A stretch of 33,331 bases of DNA from a virus. Positions 1 to 33,331 of this stretch are shown here, one piece after another; the first letter of the stretch is position 1, and each line of letters starts with the position of its first letter. The notes beneath the pieces were generated by a model that saw only the letters and a program-made list of their open reading frames with translations, searched no databases and had not been told where the DNA came from. Location of the stretch: the IMG/VR virus record IMGVR_UViG_3300010885_010563, positions 1 through 33,331 of that record; one strand, written 5' to 3'. Made by a program: the position numbers and the translations under genes.

Positions 1-123
1 GGATCGTGCATTGTTGCAACTTCCATTGCTCTTAGCGCGGATAAGTCGTGATTCTTATTCCAGTCTGGATTGTATTGACTGTTGGCTAAAACACCGATTG
101 CTAAATCTGCACCAGAACCAATA
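1..123. repeat. Terminal direct repeat, left copy
   Basis: The first 123 bases are identical to the last 123 bases of the window. The repeat lies inside an open reading frame that is continuous across the join, so it most likely marks the overlap of a circular assembly and not a biological terminus. The unique genome is then 33,208 bp. Confidence 0.97.
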
Positions 124-488
124 GCCCAATAAGGTTTAGCCGATAACACGCTCAGGTTCTCGCTTACTAAGAATGATTGACCGTGCGTTACGAGCAAGCA
201 CTCAGCATCCATCTCGCTATCTTTTAACACATCGTCAATAAGAGTTATGACGTTAGTAACGATCCACTTCAACCATTCGCCAGACTTAACTACATCATCT
301 GGTGGCTTTGGGTATTCGATTAAATACTGCAACTGATCACAGATTCGAGCATTACCTGCGACACCGATTAACCAAGAATCTTGTTGCACAATCTTAGACA
401 TATCTGGATGTATTAGATCGCTTGTTATTCCTCGATCTGCTACTAATGTTGTTGAGTTATTACCGCTTGTTGTGATGATCGTAGTCAT
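1..488 (-). CDS. HslV/proteasome-like Ntn-hydrolase peptidase, N-terminal 162 residues
   Basis: This is the 5' part of a 184-residue protein whose last residues are encoded at 33142-33208. The length is close to bacterial HslV (about 175 aa). The protein starts MTTIITT, so Met removal would expose a threonine as in proteasome-family peptidases. Asp18 in the motif VADRGI and Lys32 in MSKI correspond to Asp17 and Lys33 of the Thr1-Asp17-Lys33 catalytic triad. WLIGVAGN (39-46) and YWAIGSGADLA (120-130) are further hallmarks of the fold. From family knowledge it would be an oligomeric threonine peptidase. No HslU or other AAA+ unfoldase is encoded by the phage, so any ATPase partner would have to come from the host. 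No clear Shine-Dalgarno sequence precedes the ATG. A standard prohead protease is present elsewhere, so capsid maturation is an unlikely role. Confidence 0.8.
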   Translation of the reverse strand, partial: MTTIITTSGNNSTTLVADRGITSDLIHPDMSKIVQQDSWLIGVAGNARICDQLQYLIEYPKPPDDVVKSGEWLKWIVTNVITLIDDVLKDSEMDAECLLVTHGQSFLVSENLSVLSAKPYWAIGSGADLAIGVLANSQYNPDWNKNHDLSALRAMEVATMHD

Positions 489-1728: not shown

Positions 1729-2058
1729 TTATTTTCCTACTTCCTGTTTGCGTTCCCGATAAGTTCGAGATCGTTTTGCTGTTGATGTTTCAACTTGAAA
1801 CATACTTTTGTATTGCTGATCTATCCTTACGGGCGTGATCCTAAAAAACTTGCGCAAACTTTCGCGTTCGGTTTCGTTAGTTCCTGCCCAATAACCGCTT
1901 ACCTTGACGTGCAAAGCGTATTCTAAACAATCATCCATTATCGGACAATTCATACAAATTCTTTTCAAGGTTCTAGCAACAGAATGTTTCATTTCACCTA
2001 CTGGAAAAAACAATTCAGGATCGATGCTTGTGCAATTTGCTTGTTCGGTATTAAACAT
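1729..2058 (-). CDS. WhiB-family iron-sulfur regulator, first copy
   Basis: The 109-residue protein has the four conserved cysteines of WhiB proteins, Cys9 and then CxxC with a third at spacing five (Cys35, Cys38, Cys44), followed by GYWAGTNETER, a variant of the G(V/I)WGG turn. A basic tail is suited to DNA contact. Known WhiB proteins bind a 4Fe-4S cluster and act on the principal sigma factor. The start is set at the ATG whose sequence overlaps the stop of rusA by eight bases; an in-frame upstream ATG would give a long overlap and an atypical extension. Phage WhiB proteins are known in actinophages (for example WhiBTM4) and can interfere with host WhiB function. Confidence 0.9.
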   Translation of the reverse strand: MFNTEQANCTSIDPELFFPVGEMKHSVARTLKRICMNCPIMDDCLEYALHVKVSGYWAGTNETERESLRKFFRITPVRIDQQYKSMFQVETSTAKRSRTYRERKQEVGK

Positions 2059-2461
2059 ATTCACGCACCACCAAAACGTGACAGCCCGCTTCCATTCCAA
2101 CTGGTGCGTATTGTTTTGTTGCTGTTATCGCAATGATTAACGCATCATCGGAATACAAACCACCAGTCTTTAATCCGTCACAAGTAGATCGAATTAGTTT
2201 GTCAAGATCGGGTTTTACGCTTGGAAACTCTCGCTTAACACTCTTAGGTCGTGGCAAATAAAACGATAAACACAATTCGATGGGATCAATTATCATTTCC
2301 CATTTCTTTGTTTCCTTTTCTTGTATCGTTGTTGCGTGTACGGCTGCGCGCCACGGTTTAACTTTCGCTGACGATTCCCACATCACTACACGACCGTTTA
2401 CCACGCGACCAGTTTTAGAACCTTGTGGTGCTGGTTCGCCCGCTATAAAGAAATTGCCCAT
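2051..2461 (-). CDS. rusA: RusA-like Holliday junction resolvase
   Basis: The 136-residue protein shows the RusA pattern: N-terminal PQGSK, FYLPRPKS (67-74), and KPDLDKLIRSTCDGL in which Asp85 and Asp87 match the catalytic pair of E. coli RusA, followed by YSDDALI where Asp105 or Asp106 supplies the third acid. RusA dimers cut four-way junctions, so the likely role is to resolve branched replication or recombination intermediates before packaging. It overlaps the upstream 69-residue gene by 19 bases and the downstream whiB start by eight. Confidence 0.9.
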   Translation of the reverse strand: MGNFFIAGEPAPQGSKTGRVVNGRVVMWESSAKVKPWRAAVHATTIQEKETKKWEMIIDPIELCLSFYLPRPKSVKREFPSVKPDLDKLIRSTCDGLKTGGLYSDDALIIAITATKQYAPVGMEAGCHVLVVREYV

Positions 2462-5058: not shown

Positions 5059-5400
5059 CTAATTTGTCCACGCCGTGATGCGTAGGAATTTGCGCCTGTG
5101 TAAGCGATCCTGCGGAACTTTTCCAGACTTCACTAAGGTAACTCGATCATCTGGTGTTAAGCCACCCCACATACCGAATTTCTCATTGATCCCGATCTCA
5201 AGGCACATACCTACCACGGGACATTCCTCGCAAACTTTCTTAGCGATCGCGTACAGGTGCGGTTCGTCATTCTCTGGGAAGCACAGATCAGACGGGTATT
5301 CGATACAGGCTGCGTGATGTTGCCACGAATCCGTAGGTGAACAGATCAGACACATACCAGAGTCTAACCATTCCTCGTGGTCGCAATCTTTTATAGCCAT
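5059..5400 (-). CDS. WhiB-family protein, second copy with extra N-terminal Cys motif
   Basis: The 113-residue protein carries a WhiB core: Cys32, then CEECPVVGMC (Cys57, 60, 66) and GMWGGLTPDD with an intact GMWGG turn. A 25-residue N-terminal addition contains CDHEEWLDSGMCLIC (Cys6, 17, 20), an additional possible metal site not present in the first WhiB copy. Cys40 replaces the usual Phe of the DLFFP motif. The tail is basic. It probably modulates the host sigma factor or antagonises a host WhiB. It lies between the helicase-loader candidate and the duplicated pair of small genes. Confidence 0.9.
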   Translation of the reverse strand: MAIKDCDHEEWLDSGMCLICSPTDSWQHHAACIEYPSDLCFPENDEPHLYAIAKKVCEECPVVGMCLEIGINEKFGMWGGLTPDDRVTLVKSGKVPQDRLHRRKFLRITAWTN

Positions 5401-7755: not shown

Positions 7756-7970
7756 TATGCACCACGCTTTTTTAAGATGAAAACTTTTTTTAGTAGTAAG
7801 TGACCGTTACCGATGTTAAGAACCTTAACGCCGTCTGTAATTACATAAGTTGTAAATGTTCCGAATGGTGTGTAATCGGCAACTGCCTTTACTACTGTGT
7901 AAAGATTTCCTGCGATCATTCCCTGTGCGGAAATTTCTGCTTTAACTGTGTCGTTAATTTCGAACTTCAT
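7755..7970 (-). CDS. Hypothetical β-rich protein, first gene after a repeated promoter
   Basis: The 71-residue protein looks like a small barrel: FEINDTVKAEISAQGMIAG, LYTVVKAVADYTPFGTFTTYVI and VKVLNIGNGHLLL. Similar sequences occur in other actinobacterial phages as unnamed proteins. The strong promoter-leader at 7971-8042 directly precedes it, so it should be well expressed early. The C-terminus Gly-Ala-stop forms the coupled start for the next gene. Function is unknown. Confidence 0.65.
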   Translation of the reverse strand: MKFEINDTVKAEISAQGMIAGNLYTVVKAVADYTPFGTFTTYVITDGVKVLNIGNGHLLLKKVFILKKRGA

Positions 7971-8042
7971 TTGCTTTTCCTTTGCTCTTGCGGTTTCCCG
8001 CGCTTATAGTTCCAGCATAAAGTGTCGTATAACATTTGTCTA
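7971..8042 (-). promoter_or_regulatory. Repeated promoter with hairpin leader (copy A)
   Basis: On the minus strand TAGACA (8037-8042) and TATGCT (8014-8019) are separated by 17 bases, a good sigma-70-type promoter. The spacer ATGTTATACGACACTT is conserved with copy C and partly copy B. The predicted leader contains GCGG-GAAA-CCGC (7990-8001) and then GCAAAGGAAAAGCAA before the ATG at 7970. Conservation beyond the hexamers suggests a regulator-binding site or a duplicated cassette. Confidence 0.7.
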
Positions 8043-8097
8043 GTTATTTTGCACATCTTTTTTACCTAGTGCCACAAGGGTTTTACAGGTATAAAGA

Positions 8098-18616: not shown

Positions 18617-18846
18617 TATGCACCTGCCTTTGCGATTAAAGCCTTTTCAATAATTTTGTTGCAACGCTTACATTCGAAATCGTAACCGCGACCATCACCA
18701 TTAATTGTTGAATGAACTATGTAACGCGAATTACATCTGGCTTGCACTAAATTATCTTTTGCAAGATGTACCCAATTTGTTTTTGAATCTGCAACGAATG
18801 TAAAACCTAGTTCCCGTGCCGTTGCTTTTGTGTAGTAATTATTCAT
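18616..18846 (-). CDS. Hypothetical protein with CKRC knuckle, first gene after promoter copy B
   Basis: The start is placed at MNNYYTKATARELGF because GGAG lies six bases upstream and the hairpin leader ends there; a longer in-frame reading would cover the leader. The 76-residue product has a helix, a β part with YIVHSTING and a C-terminal CKRC plus an earlier Cys, suggestive of a small zinc ribbon. It ends in AGA with GGTGCATAATG coupling to the next gene. Function is unknown. Confidence 0.6.
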   Translation of the reverse strand: MNNYYTKATARELGFTFVADSKTNWVHLAKDNLVQARCNSRYIVHSTINGDGRGYDFECKRCNKIIEKALIAKAGA

Positions 18847-18918
18847 TTCTTGCTCCTTTTTCCTAGCGGTTTCCCGCGCTGTTAAGACAAGCATACGTTG
18901 CCGTATAACAAAAGTCTA
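18847..18918 (-). promoter_or_regulatory. Repeated promoter with hairpin leader (copy B)
   Basis: The minus strand reads TAGACT (18913-18918), 17 bases, TATGCT (18890-18895). The leader contains AACAGCGC, then GCGG-GAAA-CCGC (18866-18877) and TAGGAAAAAGGAGCAAGAA before the ATG at 18846. It shares the GTTATAC spacer core with copies A and C. It lies at the low-coordinate edge of the glycosyltransferase group and faces away from it. Confidence 0.7.
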
Positions 18919-18938
18919 GTTAATTTAATAAGTTTTTT

Positions 18939-19586
18939 TTACTTAGTGGCATAAGGGTTTTGACGTATCCATTGCGGAATAACCACCCGCGCTTCCATAT
19001 CACTAGGGGCAGAATGGTTCGCGTATTCGTAATCAACATCAATGGTATGAGTCGAATCATAAGTGGCATTTAATAGAGCAGTTCCACACCAGAACACCCA
19101 ATCATCCCACGGCGTTATCGTCTGATCGAATTTAATTTTTTCCCATAACCATTTTCTAAACGGCGATCCACACGGAATCCAATTTGCACTAAGACTTAAA
19201 ATTTGCTCTGCTGTTGTTTTTGCTGGTGTCCAGATTTGTCCCGTGTCATATTGAAAACCTAATGCGAGAACATCGGCTGTGCAACTTTCGACTTTATCAA
19301 ATGCGTGTGGTCTGTAACGATCATCAATGCCGATCCACGCAATCCATTCCGTATCGCAATTTGCAATTCCTAGATTAAACATATTGCTGTATTCAAAATC
19401 ACCATCCCAATCAATAACTTTGATTCCGTCTAAATCTAAATTGCTTCGATCAGTTCCAGAGTAAAGAACTAAAACAACATCATCGGGTTTGCGGTTTAGT
19501 TTCCTAATCGATTCAACCCATCCATTTATTTTTGATTCATAACCGTGACAGATGCCAACTATTCCTATTGTTGTACCAGTCTCCAA
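18939..19586 (-). CDS. GT-A-type glycosyltransferase, TTG start
   Basis: The 215-residue protein begins TTIGIVGICHGYESKI with a nucleotide-sugar-binding strand-loop-helix, has VVLVLYSG, and a WIAWIGIDDRYRP segment whose Asp-Asp may replace the classical DxD metal motif, as in family 2-like GT-A enzymes. TPWDDWVFWCG could hold a catalytic acid. The only in-frame start before the conserved region is TTG; its end is the end of a three-gene set of sugar transferases. Acceptor and donor cannot be told from sequence. Confidence 0.65.
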   Translation of the reverse strand: METGTTIGIVGICHGYESKINGWVESIRKLNRKPDDVVLVLYSGTDRSNLDLDGIKVIDWDGDFEYSNMFNLGIANCDTEWIAWIGIDDRYRPHAFDKVESCTADVLALGFQYDTGQIWTPAKTTAEQILSLSANWIPCGSPFRKWLWEKIKFDQTITPWDDWVFWCGTALLNATYDSTHTIDVDYEYANHSAPSDMEARVVIPQWIRQNPYATK

Positions 19587-21543: not shown

Positions 21544-21628
21544 AGATTCTCCTTAGATTGTTTACAGCGTAATTTAACAACCCTCAAAAGTCTAATAACC
21601 ACGCCACGAAACAGATGTTGAAATAAAC

Positions 21629-21702
21629 TAGACAAATGTTATACAACACTTTATGCTTGTAGTAACAGCGCGGGGATACCCGCTAGGACAAAGGATCAAG
21701 AA
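21629..21702 (+). promoter_or_regulatory. Repeated promoter with hairpin leader (copy C, plus strand)
   Basis: TAGACA (21629-21634), 17 bases, TATGCT (21652-21657) form the promoter. The leader has GCGGG-GATA-CCCGC (21670-21683) and TAGGACAAAGGATCAAGAA before the ATG at 21703. It is nearly the same as copy A over the promoter (spacer ATGTTATACAACACTT) and as copy B over the leader. It is in opposite orientation to copies A and B and drives the metallopeptidase operon. The 159-base gap 21544-21702 also contains the start region of the GT4 gene. Confidence 0.75.
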
Positions 21703-22582: not shown

Positions 22583-23773
22583 CTAGGATGCTCCACCAGC
22601 AAAATACTTCACGTGTGAAGTCTGGATTAGATTTCCATCCACGCGCATTGTTGCGCGGAATGTAATCAAGTCATTCTGGAATGCGTAATCATCCGAACGA
22701 TCTAAACGCAATCCACCAACGGTGCGTGCGTAGTAACTTGGCAAGTGACCAAAGATTACTGACTTAGCACTCGTAGCGGTATTAGCCATTGCTGGATTCT
22801 CGTAGATTGGGTAACCAAGTAAAAGGTCACGTGCTTCTGCGGATAGTGATGGCGCGAATAGGTACTGTCCTGCGGTGTCTTTCAACTTGCGAACCTTACC
22901 GATACTTGCGCCGTTCATCTGCCAACCAGTTCCTGGCAAAGTACGACCAGCAACATCAACCGAATACACAAGATCGATTAAGTTGTCTGCGGTGAATACA
23001 CCAGCAACTGCGGTCGAACCCGTAATGCCTGAACCAGCAGAAGTAATAATTCCTGTTGGCTGAGTAGTTCCAGTTCCAGTTGTTAGTGCGCCGTTTACTG
23101 CATAACCAAGTGCGTTACCAGTCTGTGTCGCTAGGAATCCAAGAATGTCCACGCCTGCATCTTCAACCATTTCACGGCTGATCTGTGTTAGGAACGAATA
23201 CTTGTATGCGCCTAGAGTTACGAACGAATTGAATGTTGGATCGCTCTCACCAATGGCTGCTGCTTCTGCGGATACTGTGCCTGTGCTGTACGCGCTTAGG
23301 CTAGGAATCTGCAAGTTCTCGCCACCCGATGTTGAAAGGATGGTTGAAGTTTCAAGCATTGGTCCAACGTGACGGGCGAGCATAAGCACTTGGTCATAGA
23401 AAGAAGTTGGAACTGGGCTGCCAGTACTCGACTTCAAAACATCGCGCTTTTCAAATGAATGTGAACGGATTTCGCCACGGGCAAGTGAACGGATTAGATC
23501 TGCATCATTAATAGATGGTACAGATACTTCTGGTCGTGCCTGTGCTTCGAAACCTGCCATTGCTTCGGCAGCGCGTTCTTCACGTTCTGCTTGTGCTTTG
23601 ATAGTGTCGATCGTTGCAGCACGCTGATCTAGATCAGCCATAATGCGGTCGTAAGTTTGATTTTCTTCAGCAGACAAATCGCGCTTTTCTGATGCTGCGA
23701 AATCTAGCAATTCTTTTGCTTGTTCCCACGCTTTTGCGCGAGCATCTACTTGCTGATTGATGTAATCAGACAT
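22583..23773 (-). CDS. Major capsid protein (HK97 fold)
   Basis: The 396-residue protein has an N-terminal helical δ-domain (residues 1-75, with DARAKAWEQAKELLDFAASE and MADLDQRAATIDTIKAQAER) that is normally cleaved by the prohead protease, then STGSPVPTSFYDQVLMLARH, GENLQIPSLSAYS, YKYSFLTQISREMVEDAG and ATRMRV-like FRATMRVDGNLIQTSHVKYF. These are HK97-type capsid features. A strong TTAGGAGCAACAT site precedes the ATG. The upstream intergenic region has a terminator and paired repeats, so it may have a separate late promoter. Confidence 0.95.
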   Translation of the reverse strand: MSDYINQQVDARAKAWEQAKELLDFAASEKRDLSAEENQTYDRIMADLDQRAATIDTIKAQAEREERAAEAMAGFEAQARPEVSVPSINDADLIRSLARGEIRSHSFEKRDVLKSSTGSPVPTSFYDQVLMLARHVGPMLETSTILSTSGGENLQIPSLSAYSTGTVSAEAAAIGESDPTFNSFVTLGAYKYSFLTQISREMVEDAGVDILGFLATQTGNALGYAVNGALTTGTGTTQPTGIITSAGSGITGSTAVAGVFTADNLIDLVYSVDVAGRTLPGTGWQMNGASIGKVRKLKDTAGQYLFAPSLSAEARDLLLGYPIYENPAMANTATSAKSVIFGHLPSYYARTVGGLRLDRSDDYAFQNDLITFRATMRVDGNLIQTSHVKYFAGGAS

Positions 23774-23936: not shown

Positions 23937-24113
23937 TTAACGTGTTTCAGTTACCTTTGCAATCCGTGTTTCCTCAACAGGCTTAAAGGATTTAACCTCA
24001 AAGCATTCGGCAACTATCGCTTCGCAAATAACATCCGCGAACTCTACAAAAACACCTGACTGCGGATTACCTAGAACATTCATATACGCTTTTTTAACAT
24101 TCTCTAAATTCAT
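23937..24113 (-). CDS. 58-aa protein between protease and capsid genes
   Basis: The ATG overlaps the stop of the protease gene (TAATG), giving a 58-residue product with helix LENVKKAYMNVLG, GVFVEFADVICEAIVAECF and a polar C-terminus. It stops 12 bases before the terminator. Capsid-region position suggests a minor head or scaffold accessory, but nothing in the sequence is diagnostic. Confidence 0.6.
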   Translation of the reverse strand: MNLENVKKAYMNVLGNPQSGVFVEFADVICEAIVAECFEVKSFKPVEETRIAKVTETR

Positions 24114-24820
24114 TAGAACACCTTTGCCATTAGATCAAGTTGCTTCCGCTTTAGTTCTAGTAGTTCGAGATTCGTTGGCTGTTCGGCGCGTAGTTTAGAA
24201 ACCACCTCAGAAATTAAATCAGCGTGTTCTGCATCTAGAGTTTCGCCCGCTTCTAGTCGCGTGATTGCATCGCTTAACGCATCTACATCCACGGCAGTAC
24301 GGGTAGCAAGAATGTCTAGAGATCGCACAGATGCAGTCGTTGCTTGATACGCGGGGAATCCTGTAACAATAGAAACTTCGTGCAAACGAATTTGATGCAG
24401 TTCGCGTGTTGATCCATCGTCTGACCATCGATCTCCACGCGGGGGAACGCTAAAACCAAATGACATTGAATTAACATCGCCACGTTGCATTAGAACCGAA
24501 AGATCACGACCAGCAGTTGTATCTGGCAGATCTGCTTCCGCTAGTAATCCGCGTGAATCCTCGCTGAGTCTTAAAGTTCCAGCACGACTAGAACCTAGAA
24601 CAACATCTGTGTTGTGATTCATAAATAGTTTTATTTCGTTGCGCGACTTTAACGAACGCTGAAATGCACCACCCTTAATAACTTCTGTGAATGGTAAAGG
24701 TTCTGATGGTGAATCGAATACGGCTGCGTATCCTGTAAAACTCATTCCATCGCTTGATGCTTCGCCGTTACGAACATCAAACTCAACTGTATTAACTCTA
24801 CGTTCTACTGTTGTTGTCAT
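24113..24820 (-). CDS. Possible internally initiated prohead protease (short form)
   Basis: In the same frame as the fusion, ATG at 24820 (Met285) is preceded by GAAAGGCAAGAA, a good ribosome-binding site at seven bases. It would give a 235-residue protein containing only the protease domain, the usual length for stand-alone prohead proteases. The long and short forms could then be incorporated in different numbers. Whether the internal start is used cannot be told from sequence alone. Confidence 0.45.
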   Translation of the reverse strand: MTTTVERRVNTVEFDVRNGEASSDGMSFTGYAAVFDSPSEPLPFTEVIKGGAFQRSLKSRNEIKLFMNHNTDVVLGSSRAGTLRLSEDSRGLLAEADLPDTTAGRDLSVLMQRGDVNSMSFGFSVPPRGDRWSDDGSTRELHQIRLHEVSIVTGFPAYQATTASVRSLDILATRTAVDVDALSDAITRLEAGETLDAEHADLISEVVSKLRAEQPTNLELLELKRKQLDLMAKVF

Positions 24821-25672
24821 TTCTTGCCTTTCATCGTTGTTCAAGTTTAGTGCAATAGTTTTCCATTTTTCGTTTTGTTCCGCGTTCCGATCTTGCTGTT
24901 CATTTCTAATTCGTTCAACAACTCGATCCGCGTAAGACATAGTTCGCCGTGCTTGTTCTTTCGTTGCTCCTGATCCCCACAGGAAATGTGCGACAACTCC
25001 AGCACTAGGATAACTTTCATTACTAGGGGAAGCAGCAGGAGCATCTAGGTCAGGCATATGGCGCGCAATCCACGCTGCTATCCGAATCCACTTATCATCG
25101 GAAACTTGTCCATCAGCCATCAGTCTTGCTTCCCGAACAGTCTTATCAGTTAAGCCATCGCCCGCTTTTCCATCGGCATAAAATTCTAAACCACGACGAG
25201 CAGCAGCGCGCATAAAACTTGGTGCATCTTGATTTATTGCGCGCATACTTTCTTGCACGTCATTACTTTGATCTGACGGAACTTCTGGAATATCAGAAAC
25301 ATTTAACGCGGTGATTCCTAGTTCTCTAAATGCTGCGCGGTTCTCTGCGTTGTTATCGATTGCAAGAATGACGTTGTATTTCTGAAGCAACATTTCTGCG
25401 GTTGCTTTCTTAAACTCTACGGAATCAACTGAACTATTTTCTTTCATAAACAATTGGTCATAGTCGATTCCTAAAGAATCTAGTTCAGCGATTGTTGTAT
25501 CTCGATCTGCCTGAACACGCGCTGTAACAATAATTATTTCTGTATCTGACATATCATCTAAATAGTTGTAAGTCTTTTGAATTAGAACACCATCGTTAGA
25601 AATAAGTGTGCCGTCAATGTCTGCGATTACAGCAAGTTTTCCTGACTCAATTCGTTCGCTTAAAAGTTCCAT
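24113..25672 (-). CDS. HAD phosphatase / helical domain / HK97 prohead protease fusion
   Basis: The ATG at 25672 overlaps the preceding stop as TAATG, giving 519 residues. Residues 12-125 form a HAD-type phosphatase: DIDGT (Asp18, Asp20), VTAR (Thr50), Lys88/Lys89 and AIDNNAEN (Asp106). Residues about 140-240 contain FMRAAARRGLEF and PSAGVVAHFLWGSG, a domain found in other phage proteins of unknown role. From about residue 285 the sequence is an HK97 prohead protease (U35/S78): EFDVRNGEA, GYAAVFDSPSEPLPF, FMNHNTDVVLG with the catalytic His and VNSMSFGFSV with the catalytic Ser. Typical proteases have about 200-235 residues. A TTG at 25696 is a less likely start. Confidence 0.85.
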   Translation of the reverse strand: MELLSERIESGKLAVIADIDGTLISNDGVLIQKTYNYLDDMSDTEIIIVTARVQADRDTTIAELDSLGIDYDQLFMKENSSVDSVEFKKATAEMLLQKYNVILAIDNNAENRAAFRELGITALNVSDIPEVPSDQSNDVQESMRAINQDAPSFMRAAARRGLEFYADGKAGDGLTDKTVREARLMADGQVSDDKWIRIAAWIARHMPDLDAPAASPSNESYPSAGVVAHFLWGSGATKEQARRTMSYADRVVERIRNEQQDRNAEQNEKWKTIALNLNNDERQEMTTTVERRVNTVEFDVRNGEASSDGMSFTGYAAVFDSPSEPLPFTEVIKGGAFQRSLKSRNEIKLFMNHNTDVVLGSSRAGTLRLSEDSRGLLAEADLPDTTAGRDLSVLMQRGDVNSMSFGFSVPPRGDRWSDDGSTRELHQIRLHEVSIVTGFPAYQATTASVRSLDILATRTAVDVDALSDAITRLEAGETLDAEHADLISEVVSKLRAEQPTNLELLELKRKQLDLMAKVF

Positions 25673-25938
25673 TAGTCTTGTGTCTGCCTTAACCAAGAAA
25701 CTGCGTGTGATCCTGACGCACTTATTGCGTATAAGGATTCAGCAGGATTCATAATAAGTTCTATCGAATCTAATTTCATTAAACGTAATCCTGTTGCACT
25801 TGTAACCGAACTGTTGCCTAAAAATAAATCTTGAGTATTGTCGTTGTTATGCACGTAAAGTCGTGATCCGTTACTCGAACATCCATCTATTTGTATTGCG
25901 CTTGTTCCTACGGTTATCTGTCCAGAAGTAATTGCCAT
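25672..25938 (-). CDS. Small β-rich head-associated protein
   Basis: The 88-residue protein has SGQITVGTSAIQIDG, SRLYVHNNDNTQDLFLGN, MKLDSIELIMNPAESLYAIS and HAVSWLRQTQD. This β-sandwich-like pattern is common in small head or virion-associated phage proteins encoded near portal and protease. It is coupled through TAATG to the fusion protein. A decoration or stabilising role is inferred from position only. Confidence 0.6.
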   Translation of the reverse strand: MAITSGQITVGTSAIQIDGCSSNGSRLYVHNNDNTQDLFLGNSSVTSATGLRLMKLDSIELIMNPAESLYAISASGSHAVSWLRQTQD

Positions 25939-25947
25939 TATGATCCC

Positions 25948-26538
25948 TTAAACGCTTGCTGCTGTTCTTGATTTTTCAATAAGTTCTGTTCCATCTGAAA
26001 CAAAAGTTAATACAAAGTATCTGCCCGACAAAATTCCTGTTGCTAAAGTTCCAGTTGTTTTGAAGTTCGCTGAATTAAAAGTTACTGTTCGTGAAGTCGT
26101 TCCAGTTGTTACAAGTATTAAAGTGCATTGTGTCCCTGCTGGTGGGCAAATAGTATTCGAAAGTGTAATGCTTGCTCCAACAGTAAGTTGCATAACTGTA
26201 ACTTGCTCAAAGGAAAGATCCTGTGATGCAGAGATAGTTCCAATGTTTGAATAAGAATCTCTTAATATTCCTGCGTTCGTTATTCCATCGATGCCTGTGG
26301 TAAAACTTAACGCGCTTATGTTCTGACCTGTATTAACTATCGGAACATCAAAAGTTGCAGCAGTTAAATCAATATTTAATGCGCTTGAAAGTGCGAGAAT
26401 GTCGAATGCAACAACAGTATTAGCAACAATCTGATCATCAAGATAAATTGCATTCGCATTAATGTCACCAGATTCATCGCGCAGAACAATAGAGTTTGGG
26501 GTTGTTGTTGTTGTTATTAGATACTTTGATTGACTCAC
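25948..26538 (-). CDS. Putative virion structural protein, GTG start
   Basis: The start GTG overlaps the portal stop as TAGTG. The 196-residue product has a Thr-rich N-terminus, NSIVLRDESGDINANAIYL, and a β-rich remainder with ITLSNTICPPAGTQCTLIL, TVTFNSANFKTTGTL and FVLTFVSDGTELIEKSR. This resembles fibre- or spike-like β-structures in phages. It may be a head fibre, given its position between the portal and the protease. Function is not proven. Confidence 0.55.
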   Translation of the reverse strand: MSQSKYLITTTTTPNSIVLRDESGDINANAIYLDDQIVANTVVAFDILALSSALNIDLTAATFDVPIVNTGQNISALSFTTGIDGITNAGILRDSYSNIGTISASQDLSFEQVTVMQLTVGASITLSNTICPPAGTQCTLILVTTGTTSRTVTFNSANFKTTGTLATGILSGRYFVLTFVSDGTELIEKSRTAASV

Positions 26539-27896
26539 TATTTAACTCCATAAACAGATTCAGGATCAGCAGGATCAATCTGCGCGATTGCTTGAAGTTG
26601 AACAGACGGTAAACCTGTGTGAGAAATTGATGGCAAATCTAAAGCAGATAAAACACCAGCAGGATCAAATCCGCTTAGAATAAGTTTTTGCGCCATCGTA
26701 ACTCTCTTGTCAGTTTCCACGAGAGAAGCAGCACCCAAATCCACGTTAGCCAAAGGAACACGATAAACCTCACCACCATCGACAGGCAGTAAATCCTCGA
26801 ACCTGCGAATGTCATTGACCGATAAGAAACCTGCTTGCGATCCAATTGAATACCCGTTCATTCGTGTAGCAAAATCACCACGCAATAATCCATCAACATT
26901 AAAACGAATAAACGCACCCTCTGGCAACAAAGTGCTGTAAGCATCCTCCATCTTGGCAATATACGGTCGTAAAGTATGCGTTACGAAATTTATGTTTTGT
27001 TGCTCTACGGAATTGTAAGACATTGCGCCAGCAGATGTAATTCCGATCATCGGCGGTGGTACGCGGAAAATTCTTGCAATCTGTTCAACTGCAAACTTTT
27101 GTGAGTCGAGCATTTGCGCTTCATCGGGATTAACACCTGTACGAACAAACTTTGCGCCACCAGTTAAGATGCCAGTTTTGTGTGCCTTGCGAAATCCTTT
27201 ATGACGAGAATCGAAACCATCAACTAATTCTTTTGCTTGTTCTCGATTTAATCCCATCGGGGTTTCGATAACACCAGAAGTTGTAGCACCTTGTCCAAAG
27301 AATCTAGATGCAAAAGATTGTAACGCGCTAGCCAAACCAAGATTATCTTTTAATTCAGAAACTCTACTTACACCACGAAGTTCGCCAGCCTTGCGCATTT
27401 CCGTCATATGCAACATATCTTTTGCTACAACTGGATATGTATTGTTCTCGTCAATAATGTAGATCAGTTCCCGCGTTACTGCGGTGCGTGTAACTTTTAC
27501 TCTGTTCGGATCGATTACAACTAAGTTTGCAACCTGTCCAGAATTATCTCTGTAAATACGAACGAAAGCATTACCATCTAGCAATAAAGAAATAAGCACC
27601 TGTTGGTAATGTTCCGTGCGTAAAAGATCAATGTCTGGTCGCTGAACCCAAGATGGTTGCGGGCGATACGGTTCACGGTTGCCATCTACACGGCGAAAGG
27701 AATCAACTGGAAGTGTAGAAATCGTGTCAGAGATTAAAAGAACACAAGCATAAAAAGCATTGATGCGCATCGATGTAATCTGATCAATGTTTGTTCCCGC
27801 TTCGGTAGTAAATGCAAAAGAATCACCCGCACCCCAAATTGATTGGAAACTGATTGCTCGATCCTCTTGCTTGTTATTCGATAAACGCCCAAGCAT
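26538..27896 (-). CDS. Portal protein (HK97 family)
   Basis: The 452-residue protein shows the HK97 portal pattern: MRINAFYACVLLISDTISTLP, QVLISLLLDGNAFVRIYRD, VKVTRTAVTRELIYI, MTEMRKAGELRGVSRV, FAVEQIARIFRVPPPMIG and NSVEQQNINFVTHTLRPYI. It would form the dodecameric ring at one capsid vertex. It begins at a TAATG overlap with the small membrane-protein gene and is followed by small structural proteins and the protease. Confidence 0.95.
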   Translation of the reverse strand: MLGRLSNNKQEDRAISFQSIWGAGDSFAFTTEAGTNIDQITSMRINAFYACVLLISDTISTLPVDSFRRVDGNREPYRPQPSWVQRPDIDLLRTEHYQQVLISLLLDGNAFVRIYRDNSGQVANLVVIDPNRVKVTRTAVTRELIYIIDENNTYPVVAKDMLHMTEMRKAGELRGVSRVSELKDNLGLASALQSFASRFFGQGATTSGVIETPMGLNREQAKELVDGFDSRHKGFRKAHKTGILTGGAKFVRTGVNPDEAQMLDSQKFAVEQIARIFRVPPPMIGITSAGAMSYNSVEQQNINFVTHTLRPYIAKMEDAYSTLLPEGAFIRFNVDGLLRGDFATRMNGYSIGSQAGFLSVNDIRRFEDLLPVDGGEVYRVPLANVDLGAASLVETDKRVTMAQKLILSGFDPAGVLSALDLPSISHTGLPSVQLQAIAQIDPADPESVYGVK

Positions 27897-28046: not shown

Positions 28047-29561
28047 CTAAAAACTAAAGAACTGTGGAACAACGGGTTCGTCACGTGAAACAGTTGCCCT
28101 ATCAAATCCAATGATACTAGCAACCGCAGCATCTATCTTTCGCGGTGATCCTCTATGTTCTTTTACGATGCGTGGTCCAATACGATCAGTCTTAACAACA
28201 GCGTTAGATAAATGTCTAGTTAGCAATGGATTGCCATCGTGTGTAAGTTTCCCCGAAACAACTGCATCGTAAAATTTTGCACACGCTGGAACCATACGCG
28301 CTGGTGATGTAGATGGCCACTCAACGATAGGGAAACCCGCTTCATCTAAAACTTGCATTGTTCGTTGCCACCTAAAAGGATCGCAAGCAATTTCTCTTAC
28401 GTTATGTGTGCCACAAAATTCAATGATTGTATTTTCAACATCAAGGATATCTACGCGCCAATCATCTTCATCATCTGGTTGTTTTTCCCAAGCCTTAACC
28501 ATAAAGACATAGGGCTGTTCCTCGCAAGTAACACCAATGATTACGGAAGCATCACCAGAGAAAGAACCATCAAAACCTAGAATAACTGGTGTATCAGAAT
28601 CGATAACGCGCTCAATCGCTAATGGTTCCCACGATCCGTTAGGTAACCACGACAGTTGCGAACTTACCCATTGATTGCATCGCTTAGTTCGAAACTCTGC
28701 TTCTGGTGTACGTTTAACCATCGCTGCGAAATCTGCTGGATCATTAAGATCACCGAACGCAGGATTCGCTGCTTTCCAAGTTTTTTCAATTGTGTGATCC
28801 GCTTCATTCTGTGCTTCCCACCACGCCATAAAAAATGTTGGATCATCAACTTCTTTTGCAGCAACTCTTTTACCGTACTGATACAAATTGTATGCAGTTG
28901 AATCTTGTCCAGTTGAATCCGACTTAACACCCGCAGTTGTAATTGCAATTGCCATAGGCTCACGGCGCGCACCCATACCAAGCAACATCGTGTCCCAAAG
29001 TTCTCGATTCGGTGCTGCGTGTAGTTCGTCAAAAATAACCATCGTTGGTGACAAACCCTCTTTTGTAAATGCTTCACTTGATAGAACGCGATACACCGAT
29101 CCAGTTGTGGGAACTTCGATTGCATCGCGGTAAACATTACACAGTTCGGATAGTTCGGGTTCTGCTTCAATCATTTTCTTAGCATCACCAAAAACAATTC
29201 GCGCTTGTTCTTTATCTGCTGCACAGGAATAAACTTCACCACCGTGCGCACCCATAATCAAAGACCATAAACCGATGCCAGAACCTAACGCACTTTTTCC
29301 ATTCTTTCTTGCCATTCCGATTAGAGCAGTTCTGTGCTTAAACTTTCCCGCGGTGTTTACTGCAAACAAATTATTTAAGAGTTCAGATTGCCACGGTCGC
29401 ATTTTCATCGGATCGCCTGAATAACCTGCAACTGTTTCTTTAGTTTGAATTGCAAATGTATTTATGAAATCGGTAACTTCAAAACCACGTGATTTTTTTA
29501 ACGCAGTTTTATTGACAGGCGTTAAAAGAGTTGGTGGCCAAGATTCAATTTTGGCTGGCAC
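28047..29561 (-). CDS. terL: Terminase large subunit
   Basis: The 504-residue protein has an N-terminal ATPase with Walker A GMARKNGKS (82-90), Walker B MVIFDELHAA (174-183) and coupling motif AITTAG, then the C-terminal nuclease of RNase H fold: ILGFDGSFSGD (Asp331), ACDPFRW and a final KIDAAVASIIG. It cuts and translocates concatemeric DNA into the prohead. It overlaps the small subunit by 17 bases. Packaging mode (cos or headful) cannot be told with confidence; circular assembly is compatible with either. Confidence 0.96.
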   Translation of the reverse strand: MPAKIESWPPTLLTPVNKTALKKSRGFEVTDFINTFAIQTKETVAGYSGDPMKMRPWQSELLNNLFAVNTAGKFKHRTALIGMARKNGKSALGSGIGLWSLIMGAHGGEVYSCAADKEQARIVFGDAKKMIEAEPELSELCNVYRDAIEVPTTGSVYRVLSSEAFTKEGLSPTMVIFDELHAAPNRELWDTMLLGMGARREPMAIAITTAGVKSDSTGQDSTAYNLYQYGKRVAAKEVDDPTFFMAWWEAQNEADHTIEKTWKAANPAFGDLNDPADFAAMVKRTPEAEFRTKRCNQWVSSQLSWLPNGSWEPLAIERVIDSDTPVILGFDGSFSGDASVIIGVTCEEQPYVFMVKAWEKQPDDEDDWRVDILDVENTIIEFCGTHNVREIACDPFRWQRTMQVLDEAGFPIVEWPSTSPARMVPACAKFYDAVVSGKLTHDGNPLLTRHLSNAVVKTDRIGPRIVKEHRGSPRKIDAAVASIIGFDRATVSRDEPVVPQFFSF

Positions 29562-29994
29562 GTGCTTTTAATTCCTCTAATTTTGATTGTCGTTTAACTT
29601 CGGCAACACCAAGTCGTGTTCGATCCGTTGGCGTGAATCCTAGTAACGAAAGATTTGCAACAAGTTGTCTATCTAACTCTCTTAATGCTTTTCTTTCATC
29701 TGGTCTGTTGCTGCTCATAACTTGAATGCGCAAATTCCATCGTTCGTCTAGTAACTCACAAGTCATTAGCAATAAATCAATGTCGGTCGTAGGGCTGATC
29801 CAACTTTGTCCCATTCCCCAAATACGATCCCAGAGTTGTTGTCCAGCAGATAGTAATGGTCTGTGAGGTTCGGGAATGCTGTAAGCAGATGGAAGCAAAA
29901 CCATCTCACCTTGATTCGGTAAAGGTCGCTTGCCAGGATTGCCAATCATTCTTTTTTGTTCAGTTGGCTTTGGTGGTCTGCCACGTGTAGCCAT
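29545..29994 (-). CDS. terS: Terminase small subunit (P27 family)
   Basis: The 149-residue protein begins ATRGRPPKPTEQKRMIGNPG with the basic Pro-rich opening of P27-type small terminases, then LLSAGQQLWDRIWG, a helical ELLDERWNLRIQV and the C-terminal LSLLGFTPTDRTRLGVAEV, all typical of this family. It would recognise packaging sequence and regulate the large subunit. GAGGG lies upstream of its start. Confidence 0.92.
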   Translation of the reverse strand: MATRGRPPKPTEQKRMIGNPGKRPLPNQGEMVLLPSAYSIPEPHRPLLSAGQQLWDRIWGMGQSWISPTTDIDLLLMTCELLDERWNLRIQVMSSNRPDERKALRELDRQLVANLSLLGFTPTDRTRLGVAEVKRQSKLEELKARASQN

Positions 29995-30012: not shown

Positions 30013-31032
30013 TTATTTATTTGACGAGAACCAAGTGATGCCATCGTTCTTTCTAAACCAATCAACAGTTTCACTTATTCCATCTTGCAAAGACTTAAAA
30101 CTTTGATGATCTATTCCTATTGCTGCAAGCGTTGAAACATCTGCACTAACTACTGTACCAAGTTCGCGGATAACTCTGCGAACATCAATGCTTCGCAAGT
30201 AAGGATTAACATCAAGAACGCTATGAACAACTGTCATTAACTTTTCTTGTGTATCTATTGCACCGCCAAATGGTTCGCCCGCGCGCATCGGCACGGTTTC
30301 GATCGTACCGCCATCAACATTTGCAATTACTTCATTAGCGACTGCAAGAACACTTGATGGTATCTTGTTGCCAACATCGATCGGATGATCTGGAACATTA
30401 CCTTTGCTTGCTTCCTCTAAAGCGGTAACAAATACGCGGGCAACATCGCCTACCCAAACCGAATCACTAATTTGTGTGCCGTCACCATAGACACGTAACG
30501 GTTCACCGCTTAACGCAGATGTTACGAATGACGGAACAATCTTTCTTACCTTTGATGAACCCTTAGGTGCTGGCGCACTTTGTCGTGGTCCATACGCATT
30601 CATTGGTCGAACGGAAGTCACACGCAGACCTCGATCCATTCGATACATATCAACAAATCTTTCGCTTGCTGATTTCGTAATGCAGTAAGTTCCCCGCGCA
30701 ATGTTCGCGTTACCAACGGCTGCAAACACAACGGGTAAGTCGTATCGTGTCGCTGCTTCAAAAACATTAAGAGTTCCGATGATGTTTGTTTCTGCTGCTG
30801 GTAGCGGAGCATCAATTGTTTCAACTGTTCCTAGTACGGCTGCAAGATGGATAATGCCATCAACGTGTGCTGCAAGTTCATTAACGATCGTGCTATCTCG
30901 TACATCACCAAGCATTCCATTTTCTGCTCGCCCGCGATGATCTAGGATAAGCGGTGTATGACCACGCTTTGTTAATTCCTCGCAAACATACGAACCGATA
31001 AAACCTGAACCGCCAGTTACACCAATTTTCAT
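30013..31032 (-). CDS. NAD-dependent sugar epimerase/dehydratase
   Basis: The 339-residue protein is an extended short-chain dehydrogenase: GVTGGSGFIGSYV (4-16), DVRD, GIIHLAAVLG, catalytic YCITK (Tyr-x-x-x-Lys), VRPMNAYGPRQ and VWVGDVARVF. It differs from the GalE-like protein at 17412 in lacking its SxxxYG pattern and resembles nucleotide-sugar epimerases/dehydratases more generally. AAAGGA precedes the ATG, two bases after the TAGT glycosyltransferase stop. The neighbourhood suggests it provides the sugar nucleotide donor for that enzyme. Confidence 0.85.
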   Translation of the reverse strand: MKIGVTGGSGFIGSYVCEELTKRGHTPLILDHRGRAENGMLGDVRDSTIVNELAAHVDGIIHLAAVLGTVETIDAPLPAAETNIIGTLNVFEAATRYDLPVVFAAVGNANIARGTYCITKSASERFVDMYRMDRGLRVTSVRPMNAYGPRQSAPAPKGSSKVRKIVPSFVTSALSGEPLRVYGDGTQISDSVWVGDVARVFVTALEEASKGNVPDHPIDVGNKIPSSVLAVANEVIANVDGGTIETVPMRAGEPFGGAIDTQEKLMTVVHSVLDVNPYLRSIDVRRVIRELGTVVSADVSTLAAIGIDHQSFKSLQDGISETVDWFRKNDGITWFSSNK

Positions 31033-31034
31033 TT

Positions 31035-31892
31035 CTATTTCCTTTTGTATTTTTCATTGATTATTTTAGGGACAGCGTTATCCCATTTAATTGAATGATG
31101 AAAACGTCTATCAGTTCTGCCCATCGTTCCGATGCTTACGCAAGATGGTGCCATCATTACCGTGTAAAAACTTTTTGTGTATGTGCCGGAATCTTTGTAA
31201 AATTCAGACATTCCACCAGATGCTTGTTGTGTCTGCACCTGATTTAATTGCAAAGCCATTGTTGTTAAGAATAGTGAACCGCGCTGTCCATAGCAAACGT
31301 AAGAATTAACATCATCATTAACTCTGCCAATAAAATTTATTGGTGTATCTGTGCGACAAAAAAATGAATTCATTGCTTTACGCAGTAAACCGTTTTTTAT
31401 TTTGCCATCTACTCCGCCCATATGATCGCCACCTTGCGACATTGCAACTGTAACGGCGTTTGTGCTTTCTAGTAGATCGAGCATTGAATCAACTATCTTG
31501 TCAAAGTTAGTTATTTGTTTTGAGCAAATTTTGTCACCCTTGACAAACCTATGTAAGAAAACCGTGTAGTCATCATCTAGTTGCAAAAAATAATCTAGTT
31601 TTAATTGTTTAGCAATTTCAAAGGAAGCATTGCGAGCATAAACAATTGCGCGATGATCGTCACCCGAATAAGCATCATCAAAAGTTTTTGCAATTGCTTT
31701 CTTGTCAAACATAAACACGTTTTCTTTTCCGAACTTGTCTATGTAAGTTTGTCCCTGCGTATCCTCATTATCAATTATGAAATAAGTTTTGCCAGAATAG
31801 TTTGCTTTCTTTAATGACTCTAAAGTAATTACATTGTCTGGTCTGCCGTGTGTCAAAATAAAAATAGCAAAATTCTTTTTATCTCTAGCCAT
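31035..31892 (-). CDS. TAGT/GREB1-type glycosyltransferase (candidate DNA glycosylation)
   Basis: The 285-residue protein has the pattern of TET-associated glycosyltransferases: FAIFILTHGRPDN (8-20), YFIIDNEDTQGQTY (37-50), AIVYARNASFEIAK with conserved Arg-Asn, and YFLQLDDDYTVF with an Asp cluster (106-108), then GGDHMGGVDG and a C-terminal GRTDRRFHHSIKWD. Such enzymes have been proposed from comparative genomics to glycosylate modified bases in phage DNA. No TET/JBP oxygenase, thymidylate/hydroxymethyl synthase or kinase is seen in this genome, so the acceptor is unclear. Its stop-start overlap is eight bases with the ParB gene. GATC is less frequent than in neighbouring genes, compatible with different origin. 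Confidence 0.7.
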   Translation of the reverse strand: MARDKKNFAIFILTHGRPDNVITLESLKKANYSGKTYFIIDNEDTQGQTYIDKFGKENVFMFDKKAIAKTFDDAYSGDDHRAIVYARNASFEIAKQLKLDYFLQLDDDYTVFLHRFVKGDKICSKQITNFDKIVDSMLDLLESTNAVTVAMSQGGDHMGGVDGKIKNGLLRKAMNSFFCRTDTPINFIGRVNDDVNSYVCYGQRGSLFLTTMALQLNQVQTQQASGGMSEFYKDSGTYTKSFYTVMMAPSCVSIGTMGRTDRRFHHSIKWDNAVPKIINEKYKRK

Positions 31893-32646
31893 CTTGTTTT
31901 TCTAACAGTTCGATTGTTTCCATAAATTTTACATAACCATTTTTGATTGCATCTGCCATATCAATAATTACTAGGGCTGACTGCTCCATTAATTCTTGTG
32001 TGTCCTTATCGCAATGCGCGTAGTATTCAGCAATCAATTTATAGTTAAAAACTAAATGCCTGTATGTTCCTAAGATTAAAAATTGTTCAACATTTTTATC
32101 CGACAAATTTTTAGCATAAATTTCTTTTTGCAAAAACTTTGTTTTACTTTCGTTCACTAAAGATTCACTTGTAGGTTTCTCGCCAACTATTTCGTACTGC
32201 GGAATGTTTAATGATTGTGTATAAAGATTCTCGTGATCATCGGGATTACCTAGCGGTGGTTGCAGTTCAACAAATCCAAACTCTTGTAGTTCCCAACCGA
32301 CAGCATCAAGTTCTAACATCTGTTCTTTAAGAACTTCCGCATTCCATTCCGCAAGTTCAGCAGTTCGATTATCGGCAAGTGCGTAGGCTTTGATCTGATC
32401 CCAACTCCAACCAATCGGTGTTCGACTTATTGCTATTTCAGTCCAACCTAATTTCTGTGCTGCTTCGAGAGTTCCGTTACCAGCAACAACGATGTTGTCG
32501 GGCGTGACAACAATCGGTTTACGCTGCCCGAATAATTTAAGCGATCCCGCAATTGCATCTAGATTTTTTGCATCGTGTTTTCTAGCGTTCGTAGGATCGA
32601 ACTTCAATAAATCAATTTTTACATTTTCAATTCGCAGATCAGTCAT
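31885..32646 (-). CDS. ParB-N domain protein near terminase
   Basis: The start MTDLRIENVKIDLL gives 253 residues. The first 100 residues are a ParB/Srx-like N-terminal domain with LKFDPTNARKHD, LKLFGQRKPIVV, VVAGNGTLEAAQKL and ALADNRTAEL. In phages, ParB-like proteins are frequent next to terminase or DNA-modification genes, and may bind DNA as nucleases or CTPase-type clamps; no helix-turn-helix of partitioning ParB is obvious. The C-terminal 120 residues are helical and acidic and match nothing I know. In-frame codons continue upstream to a GTG at 32817, but the sequence there does not resemble protein of this family. Confidence 0.8.
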   Translation of the reverse strand: MTDLRIENVKIDLLKFDPTNARKHDAKNLDAIAGSLKLFGQRKPIVVTPDNIVVAGNGTLEAAQKLGWTEIAISRTPIGWSWDQIKAYALADNRTAELAEWNAEVLKEQMLELDAVGWELQEFGFVELQPPLGNPDDHENLYTQSLNIPQYEIVGEKPTSESLVNESKTKFLQKEIYAKNLSDKNVEQFLILGTYRHLVFNYKLIAEYYAHCDKDTQELMEQSALVIIDMADAIKNGYVKFMETIELLEKQDG

Positions 32647-32653
32647 AAATCGG

Positions 32654-32681
32654 ATGTTACAGGAAAAACGTAAGAAATCAA
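32654..32681 (-). promoter_or_regulatory. Candidate promoter for the ParB/TAGT operon, possibly leaderless
   Basis: TTGATT (32676-32681) and TAACAT (32654-32659) are 16 bases apart. The -10 box ends seven bases before the ATG at 32646, so transcription would begin at or within a base or two of the start codon. No Shine-Dalgarno sequence precedes that ATG. Leaderless messages are common in Actinobacteria. The rest of the 178-base gap 32647-32824 holds only the hairpin at 32800-32823. Confidence 0.45.
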
Positions 32682-32799
32682 CAACTGTTCTAAAAAATCC
32701 TTTTAATTCGGGGTTTTTAGGAAAACTGGGAATTTTGCGACAATGCCTACATAGGTGGATTCGGGGTATCGCTTCCGTGTGCGTATAAGAAAATGACCC

Positions 32800-32823
32800 A
32801 CCCCCGCCTGATACCACGGGGGT
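32800..32823 (-). terminator. Hairpin after the HNH gene
   Basis: ACCCCCG and CGGGGGT pair perfectly across a 10-base loop just downstream of the HNH stop. In the minus direction GGGTCATTTTC follows, a weak T-run. It may act as an imperfect terminator for the Ntn-peptidase/HNH transcript, ahead of the ParB promoter. Confidence 0.55.
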
Positions 32824-32824
32824 T

Positions 32825-33142
32825 CTAGGGATTGATTACTGGCTTGTTTCCTCTAGCAGCGTTACAGGCTGCGTGTGCGGGCATTAGAACACTTCCCTTA
32901 ACTCCAGCAAGCACGTGATCTGCCTGTATCTGTGAGCGATCTGTAAAGGCTTCCCCGCATAACCAGCAATGAGTCGCAAATTCCTTAATTAACTTTGCCT
33001 GCTTTCGATGGCTAGCATCGTAAAGAGTTCGCTGTGCTTTCCTTGCATTAACTTTCGAATCGATTACTGCTTGATGATCCTCGCATCGTGATCCAAGTCG
33101 CGTAAGTTTTCCGCAGTCTAAGCACGGTCGCTGAAACGCCAT
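32825..33142 (-). CDS. HNH endonuclease, second copy
   Basis: The 105-residue protein has an N-terminal CLDCGK zinc knuckle with a second pair near CEDH, a basic helix (VNARKAQRTLYDASHRKQAK), and an HNH core: HCWLCGE (Cys59/62), QADHVLAG (Asp75-His76), PAHAACNAARGNK (His90, Cys93, Asn94). The extra N-terminal knuckle is absent from the HNH protein at 624-902. It starts as TGATG on the stop of the Ntn peptidase. Location upstream of the terminase genes suggests a packaging-associated nuclease. Confidence 0.88.
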   Translation of the reverse strand: MAFQRPCLDCGKLTRLGSRCEDHQAVIDSKVNARKAQRTLYDASHRKQAKLIKEFATHCWLCGEAFTDRSQIQADHVLAGVKGSVLMPAHAACNAARGNKPVINP

Positions 33143-33331
33143 CAGAAACTCTTTATAACATTACCCGCAGGATGCGACACCCATCGGTCGATCGTTCCGC
33201 GTGTATTTGGATCGTGCATTGTTGCAACTTCCATTGCTCTTAGCGCGGATAAGTCGTGATTCTTATTCCAGTCTGGATTGTATTGACTGTTGGCTAAAAC
33301 ACCGATTGCTAAATCTGCACCAGAACCAATA
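33142..33331 (-). CDS. HslV/proteasome-like peptidase, C-terminal part
   Basis: This is the 3' end of the gene starting at 488 on the circular molecule. Bases 33209-33331 repeat 1-123, and the unique end, 33142-33208, encodes the last residues (NTRGTIDRWVSHPAGNVIKSF). The complete gene is 555 bases with stop. Its TGA overlaps the next start as TGATG. Confidence 0.8.
   Translation of the reverse strand, partial: IGSGADLAIGVLANSQYNPDWNKNHDLSALRAMEVATMHDPNTRGTIDRWVSHPAGNVIKSF
33209..33331. repeat. Terminal direct repeat, right copy
   Basis: This sequence is identical to 1-123. It should be removed when the genome is circularised. Confidence 0.97.

Follow-up and report, generated by a model that had tools for sequence, protein, structure and literature searches.

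What does a phage gain from a proteasome-type peptidase when its genome encodes no unfoldase? The question is raised by a gene in the window, that is, the whole 33,331-nucleotide stretch analyzed here (IMG/VR record IMGVR_UViG_3300010885_010563), which a sequence-only reading had described as encoding a proteasome- or HslV-like threonine peptidase. We examined the gene, its homologues and its neighborhood in other phages, together with the predicted fold of the product.

A gene split by the ends of the linear sequence

Bases 1 to 123 of the window are identical to bases 33209 to 33331, and therefore the window represents a phage genome that is circular, with a unit of 33,208 nt and a 123-nt terminal overlap (the copy at 33209-33331 is the assembly overlap of the circle). 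The peptidase gene lies on the minus strand and crosses this junction, running from 488 to 1 and then from 33208 to 33142, with 184 codons plus a stop and an uninterrupted frame from ATG to TGA. Its first part (1-488) has the start codon at 488-486 and the codons for residues 1 to about 162, while its last part (33142-33208) ends in the TGA at 33144-33142, which shares one base with the ATG of the next gene, an HNH endonuclease-like gene directly downstream (32825-33142, minus strand). The suspicion that the linear form of the genome had split the gene was thus borne out, and the length of 184 residues and all the motifs originally listed (Thr after the initiator Met, Asp18, Lys32, and GSGAD, the last at residues 124 to 128) were present in the rejoined protein. 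With Met counted, Thr2, Asp18, and Lys32 correspond to residues 1, 17, and 31 of the mature chain, which leaves the lysine two residues short of the proteasome Lys33. A chance open reading frame was ruled out by the homologues, the invariant residues, and the dN/dS ratios given below.

Family, conservation, and predicted fold

In a profile search, PHROG 1040, "peptidase HslV family," matched residues 1 to 175 of the window protein (E value, 1.9e-19) as well as all 38 members of our diverse alignment (A3), whose representatives are about 25 to 89% identical to the window protein. The Pfam family Proteasome (PF00227) scored the window protein alone just below its cut-off (20.8 versus 22.4 bits) and matched 36 of the 38 members. 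A single-sequence search of PDB gave a best E value of only 0.15, and a diverse profile was needed: compared with solved structures, the A3 profile found the betaproteobacterial proteasome homologue (BPH) as its best match (E value, 1.7e-9; positions 2 to 160), with Thr2 placed on BPH residue 1, followed by HslV (E value, 5.7e-8) and then by 20S β subunits, as the sequence-only reading had anticipated for the last two. Only PF00227 and PHROG 1040 matched; the head-protease families S78, S49, and ClpP gave no match to the window protein. These results support the assignment of the gene product to the proteasome-like N-terminal-nucleophile (Ntn) threonine peptidases, closest by sequence to the BPH/HslV group.

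Relatives 46 to 89% identical to the window protein were encoded in 35 IMG/VR contigs, and the homologue of phage ct2KA10/E7, used as a query, yielded 144 IMG/VR matches of a more distant type (start, MTTIIGVE), 80 of which were kept. The window clade forms a divergent branch of PHROG 1040, about 25 to 35% identical to the E7-type members. Seven positions were invariant throughout A3 (Thr2, Asp18, Lys32, Gly45, Gly124, Gly126, and Thr165), and position 125 was always Ser or Thr, so that G-S/T-G was found in 38/38. The triad of the Thr1/Asp17/Lys33 type and the oxyanion glycine were therefore identical in every aligned sequence, a conservation on which the original proposal depended, while the position of proteasome Asp166 held Asp in only 27 of the 38. 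Every homologue began with MTT and had no propeptide, a trait of proteasome homologues other than 20S β and most HslV (PMC8665760). Within the close clade, dN/dS was about 0.07 to 0.13 for the pairs in which dS was computable, suggesting strong purifying selection on the gene. Scans of genome contigs and a plasmid tblastn search found no bacterial or plasmid relatives, although the contig scans need short exact motifs and do not by themselves demonstrate absence. One distant homologue (L129, 1002-1157) has a premature stop that leaves 52 codons, even though its tblastn match spans the full length, which suggests a broken copy or a sequencing error.

An AlphaFold model built from A3 reached a pLDDT of 91 (an earlier run with 14 close sequences gave 51 and was set aside). 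The model aligned with a 20S β subunit (6z46 chain V) over 170 residues at 2.7 Å with a Z score of 20.8, in the alignments with many 20S β chains its residue 2 is the first aligned position and falls on their residue 1, and helices follow S4 at 47-56, 64-69, and 72-87. A proteasome β fold with an intact active site is thus well supported, and the structural match to Ntn hydrolases agrees with the first proposal. The segment after H2/third helix was acidic in the A3 rows printed (net charge, -1 to -5; mean, -3.1). BPH likewise has an acidic pore-loop segment and is ATPase independent, whereas HslV has in the corresponding stretch a basic pore cluster needed for activity with HslU (PMC5777263). 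Since BPH was inert on standard substrates (PMC5777263), peptidase activity cannot be assumed here either.

No match to AAA_2 (PF07724) or AAA (PF00004) was found in the window, with positive controls in 14/14 reference genomes, in keeping with the reported lack of an HslU- or ClpX-type ATPase gene. Family searches thus ruled out a phage-encoded unfoldase; the AAA match examined in the second phage family described below (phage of L071) was a 260-amino-acid DnaB-like helicase. Another contig, L124, gave two AAA-type matches, and its 79,356 bases, about twice the 37 to 40 kb of its relatives, perhaps reflect a joined or doubled assembly. Two genes for WhiB-like regulators in the window (1729-2100 and 5059-5400, both minus strand) make an actinobacterium the very probable host, since such genes are used to recognize phages of these bacteria (PMC6802176). 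For Actinobacteria, Table 1 of PMC8665760 has no HslV entry, and for these two reasons a host HslU as partner or a host HslV as target of interference, both suggested at the outset, was judged unlikely. The protein might instead act independently or through a different AAA+ ring of the host (Mpa/ARC, ClpX, or ClpC). Taken together, the profile, structure, and conservation tests support a proteasome/HslV-type Ntn hydrolase with an intact triad in a genome without an unfoldase.

Genomic setting in two phage families

The gene order in the window is SSB, small genes, HNH, peptidase, HNH-like, ParB-like (31885-32817), sugar genes, terminase small subunit (29545-29994), terminase large subunit (28047-29561), portal (26538-27896), a conventional S78 prohead protease (24113-25696; PF04586 E value, 1.8e-43), and major head protein (22583-23773), and all of those with coordinates given, like the HNH endonuclease gene upstream of the peptidase (624-902), are on the minus strand. 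Among 28 compared loci, selected by the presence of the peptidase (28/28), SSB and each of the two HNH genes were kept in 26. Starting instead from the terminase, the peptidase was found in 10/10 loci with at least 3.5 kb upstream; the terminase loci without it had flanks shorter than the distance of the gene in the window and are not evidence of loss. The place between the two HNH genes, upstream of the terminase, is therefore fixed in the WhiB-carrying lineage of the window. Pontimonas phage phiPsal1, the closest relative in culture (TerL, 55%; head genes in the same order), lacks the peptidase. Given its presence in all ten terminase loci and its absence from phiPsal1, the peptidase looks like a core gene of the window lineage that is dispensable beyond it. 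The sequence-only reading of the genome was sound in its own observations, which included the presence of the standard prohead protease, but did not notice the link to the packaging and head genes.

Other features of the genome are worth recording. The S78 protease has an N-terminal stretch resembling HAD/polynucleotide phosphatases (about residues 17 to 144), possibly a fusion. Between the ParB-like gene and the terminase small subunit (30013-31892, minus strand) lie a nucleotide-sugar epimerase and a beta-glucosyl-HMC-alpha-glucosyltransferase-like gene, common to L021 alone among the compared loci, which suggests a variable sugar modification of DNA or surface. A 98-nt repeat (71% alike) occupies two intergenic places (7966-8063 and 18842-18939), and a 66-nt inverted copy (83%) is found at 21609-21674; these are perhaps shared promoters or regulatory sites.

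A homologue with the same triad and start was found in the Planktophila phages E7 and F5 (OX376640.1 and OX376641.1; tblastn E value, 4e-8; A3 profile E value, 9e-81), at 28 to 30% identity to the window protein. Both are cultivated phages of freshwater actinobacteria, E7 having been cultivated on Planktophila LanE-43 (PMC10202952); OX376640.1 (LanE43-AprE7) was equated with E7 by record name. The E7/ct2KA10-type phages have almost no other gene in common with the window phage, and the position of the peptidase differs, since in 11/11 E7-type loci it lies about 18 nt behind the portal gene, inside the structural block. It is followed there by genes for structural-region proteins of about 150 and about 1600 amino acids and by scaffold-like and head genes. 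Directly behind the portal is the usual place of the head maturation protease, and the E7-type genomes searched gave no S78, S49, or ClpP match (0/11), whereas S78 was found in 10/10 genomes of the window lineage. Two or three genes behind the portal, the E7-type phages also encode a giant protein of PHROG 10618 (function unknown; L107, 6998-11617; about 1540 to 1760 amino acids in relatives), possibly an ejection protein and a candidate substrate of the peptidase. Relatives also occur in larger named phages, in other regions, for example near early genes or genes of nucleotide metabolism; their annotations include "Ntn_hydrolase-like protein," "protease," "ATP-dependent protease subunit," and "proteasome subunit beta."

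Possible roles and known relatives

We consider it probable (ca. 0.6) that the product is a proteasome-like Ntn threonine peptidase that self-assembles and cleaves without a dedicated unfoldase during infection. Host methionine aminopeptidase would remove Met1 and expose Thr1, and the subunits would form a single or double homo-oligomeric ring. Such a particle might cut peptides, proteins in an unfolded state, or a small set of particular phage or host proteins, most probably at the time when infection turns to packaging and head assembly. The Pfam score of the single sequence, the incomplete conservation of the Asp166-type Asp, the inertness of BPH, a conceivable AAA+ partner from the host, and the lack of the gene in phiPsal1 all count against this explanation.

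The neighborhoods described above bring in a different role, in virion assembly, where the peptidase would trim portal, scaffold, ejection, or capsid proteins and might replace the usual head maturation protease in E7/F5-type phages. The place behind the portal in all E7-type loci, ahead of structural-region, scaffold-like, and head genes, the lack of the common head proteases in these genomes, and the position just upstream of the terminase-portal block in the window lineage all speak for it. However, in the window phage an S78 protease competes with the peptidase as the candidate head protease; the relatives in large phages sit in early or nucleotide-metabolism regions; and known cleavage sites are lacking. 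A head protease is often dispensable in phages that have a separate scaffold, and for this reason we keep the assembly role as a rival that is rather unlikely. A general version, in which freshwater-actinobacteria phages use threonine peptidases of the proteasome fold in virion assembly, to mature head or ejection proteins in the E7/F5 type and to add a processing step beside S78 in the window lineage, seems to us unlikely; if it were true, the maturation proteases of phages would have arisen from one more, unrelated source. A literature search for links between prohead proteases and Ntn folds retrieved nothing relevant.

A ring of subunits could also recruit an AAA+ unfoldase of the host (Mpa/ARC, ClpX, or ClpC) and degrade chosen host proteins, since AAA+ rings are the partners of the HslV and 20S β relatives and no phage ATPase was found. 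We regard this as distinctly improbable: judging by the HslV row of Table 1 in PMC8665760, an actinobacterial host is unlikely to have HslU, the pore-loop segment is acidic like that of the ATPase-independent BPH (PMC5777263), and the 20S α ring that binds Mpa is not part of the window protein. Very little weight falls on a nonproteolytic Ntn enzyme, be it a connectase-like ligase, a binding protein, or a decoy in the assembly of the host proteasome. The family does hold the ligase connectase (PMC8665760) and the apparently inert BPH (PMC5777263), but the invariance of triad and oxyanion residues across very divergent phages argues for catalysis and against a decoy, and the modeled helices after S4 are absent from connectase.

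Phage proteasome homologues have so far been without a known role. The one studied here is strictly conserved, keeps what looks like an intact active site, and has a constant position in each of two freshwater-actinobacteria phage families that are otherwise unrelated; with E7, F5, and a cultivated host (PMC10202952), the role of an unfoldase-less phage peptidase of the proteasome type becomes directly testable.

In 2021, Fuchs, Alva, and Lupas added 22 proteasome homologues to those known; of these, PPH and AAH occur in tailed phages, with no co-occurring AAA+ partner (PMC8665760), a setting similar to that of the window protein. PPH has about 140 residues and lacks helix H2 (PMC8665760), and membership was ruled out by the 184 residues and the helix that the model places at the H2 position. 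For AAH, the same authors reported no carrier among phages specific to actinobacteria; the connectase of the same survey is a specific ligase within the proteasome-like family (PMC8665760). HslV, a dodecamer of two six-membered rings, resembles the window protein in the MTTI start, the triad, the GSG motif, and the two-helix layers, but the window protein has no basic pore cluster, and a search of the window for the HslU partner gene (PF07724 and PF00004) was negative. BPH (PDB 5ovu/5ovt), the best solved relative by sequence over the full length, has the same Thr/Asp/Lys positions and an acidic pore loop, and for it, too, no partner ATPase is known; the window protein differs in being phage encoded and in an identity under about 20%. 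Nothing tested sets the window protein apart from PHROG 1040. The sequence-only reading was therefore right about the identity, the triad, and the lack of a phage unfoldase gene and overstated the novelty, since this kind of protein is already catalogued, both as the named PHROG 1040 and as phage proteasome homologues without AAA+ partners (PMC8665760). What is new here is the informative genomic context, not a new mechanism.
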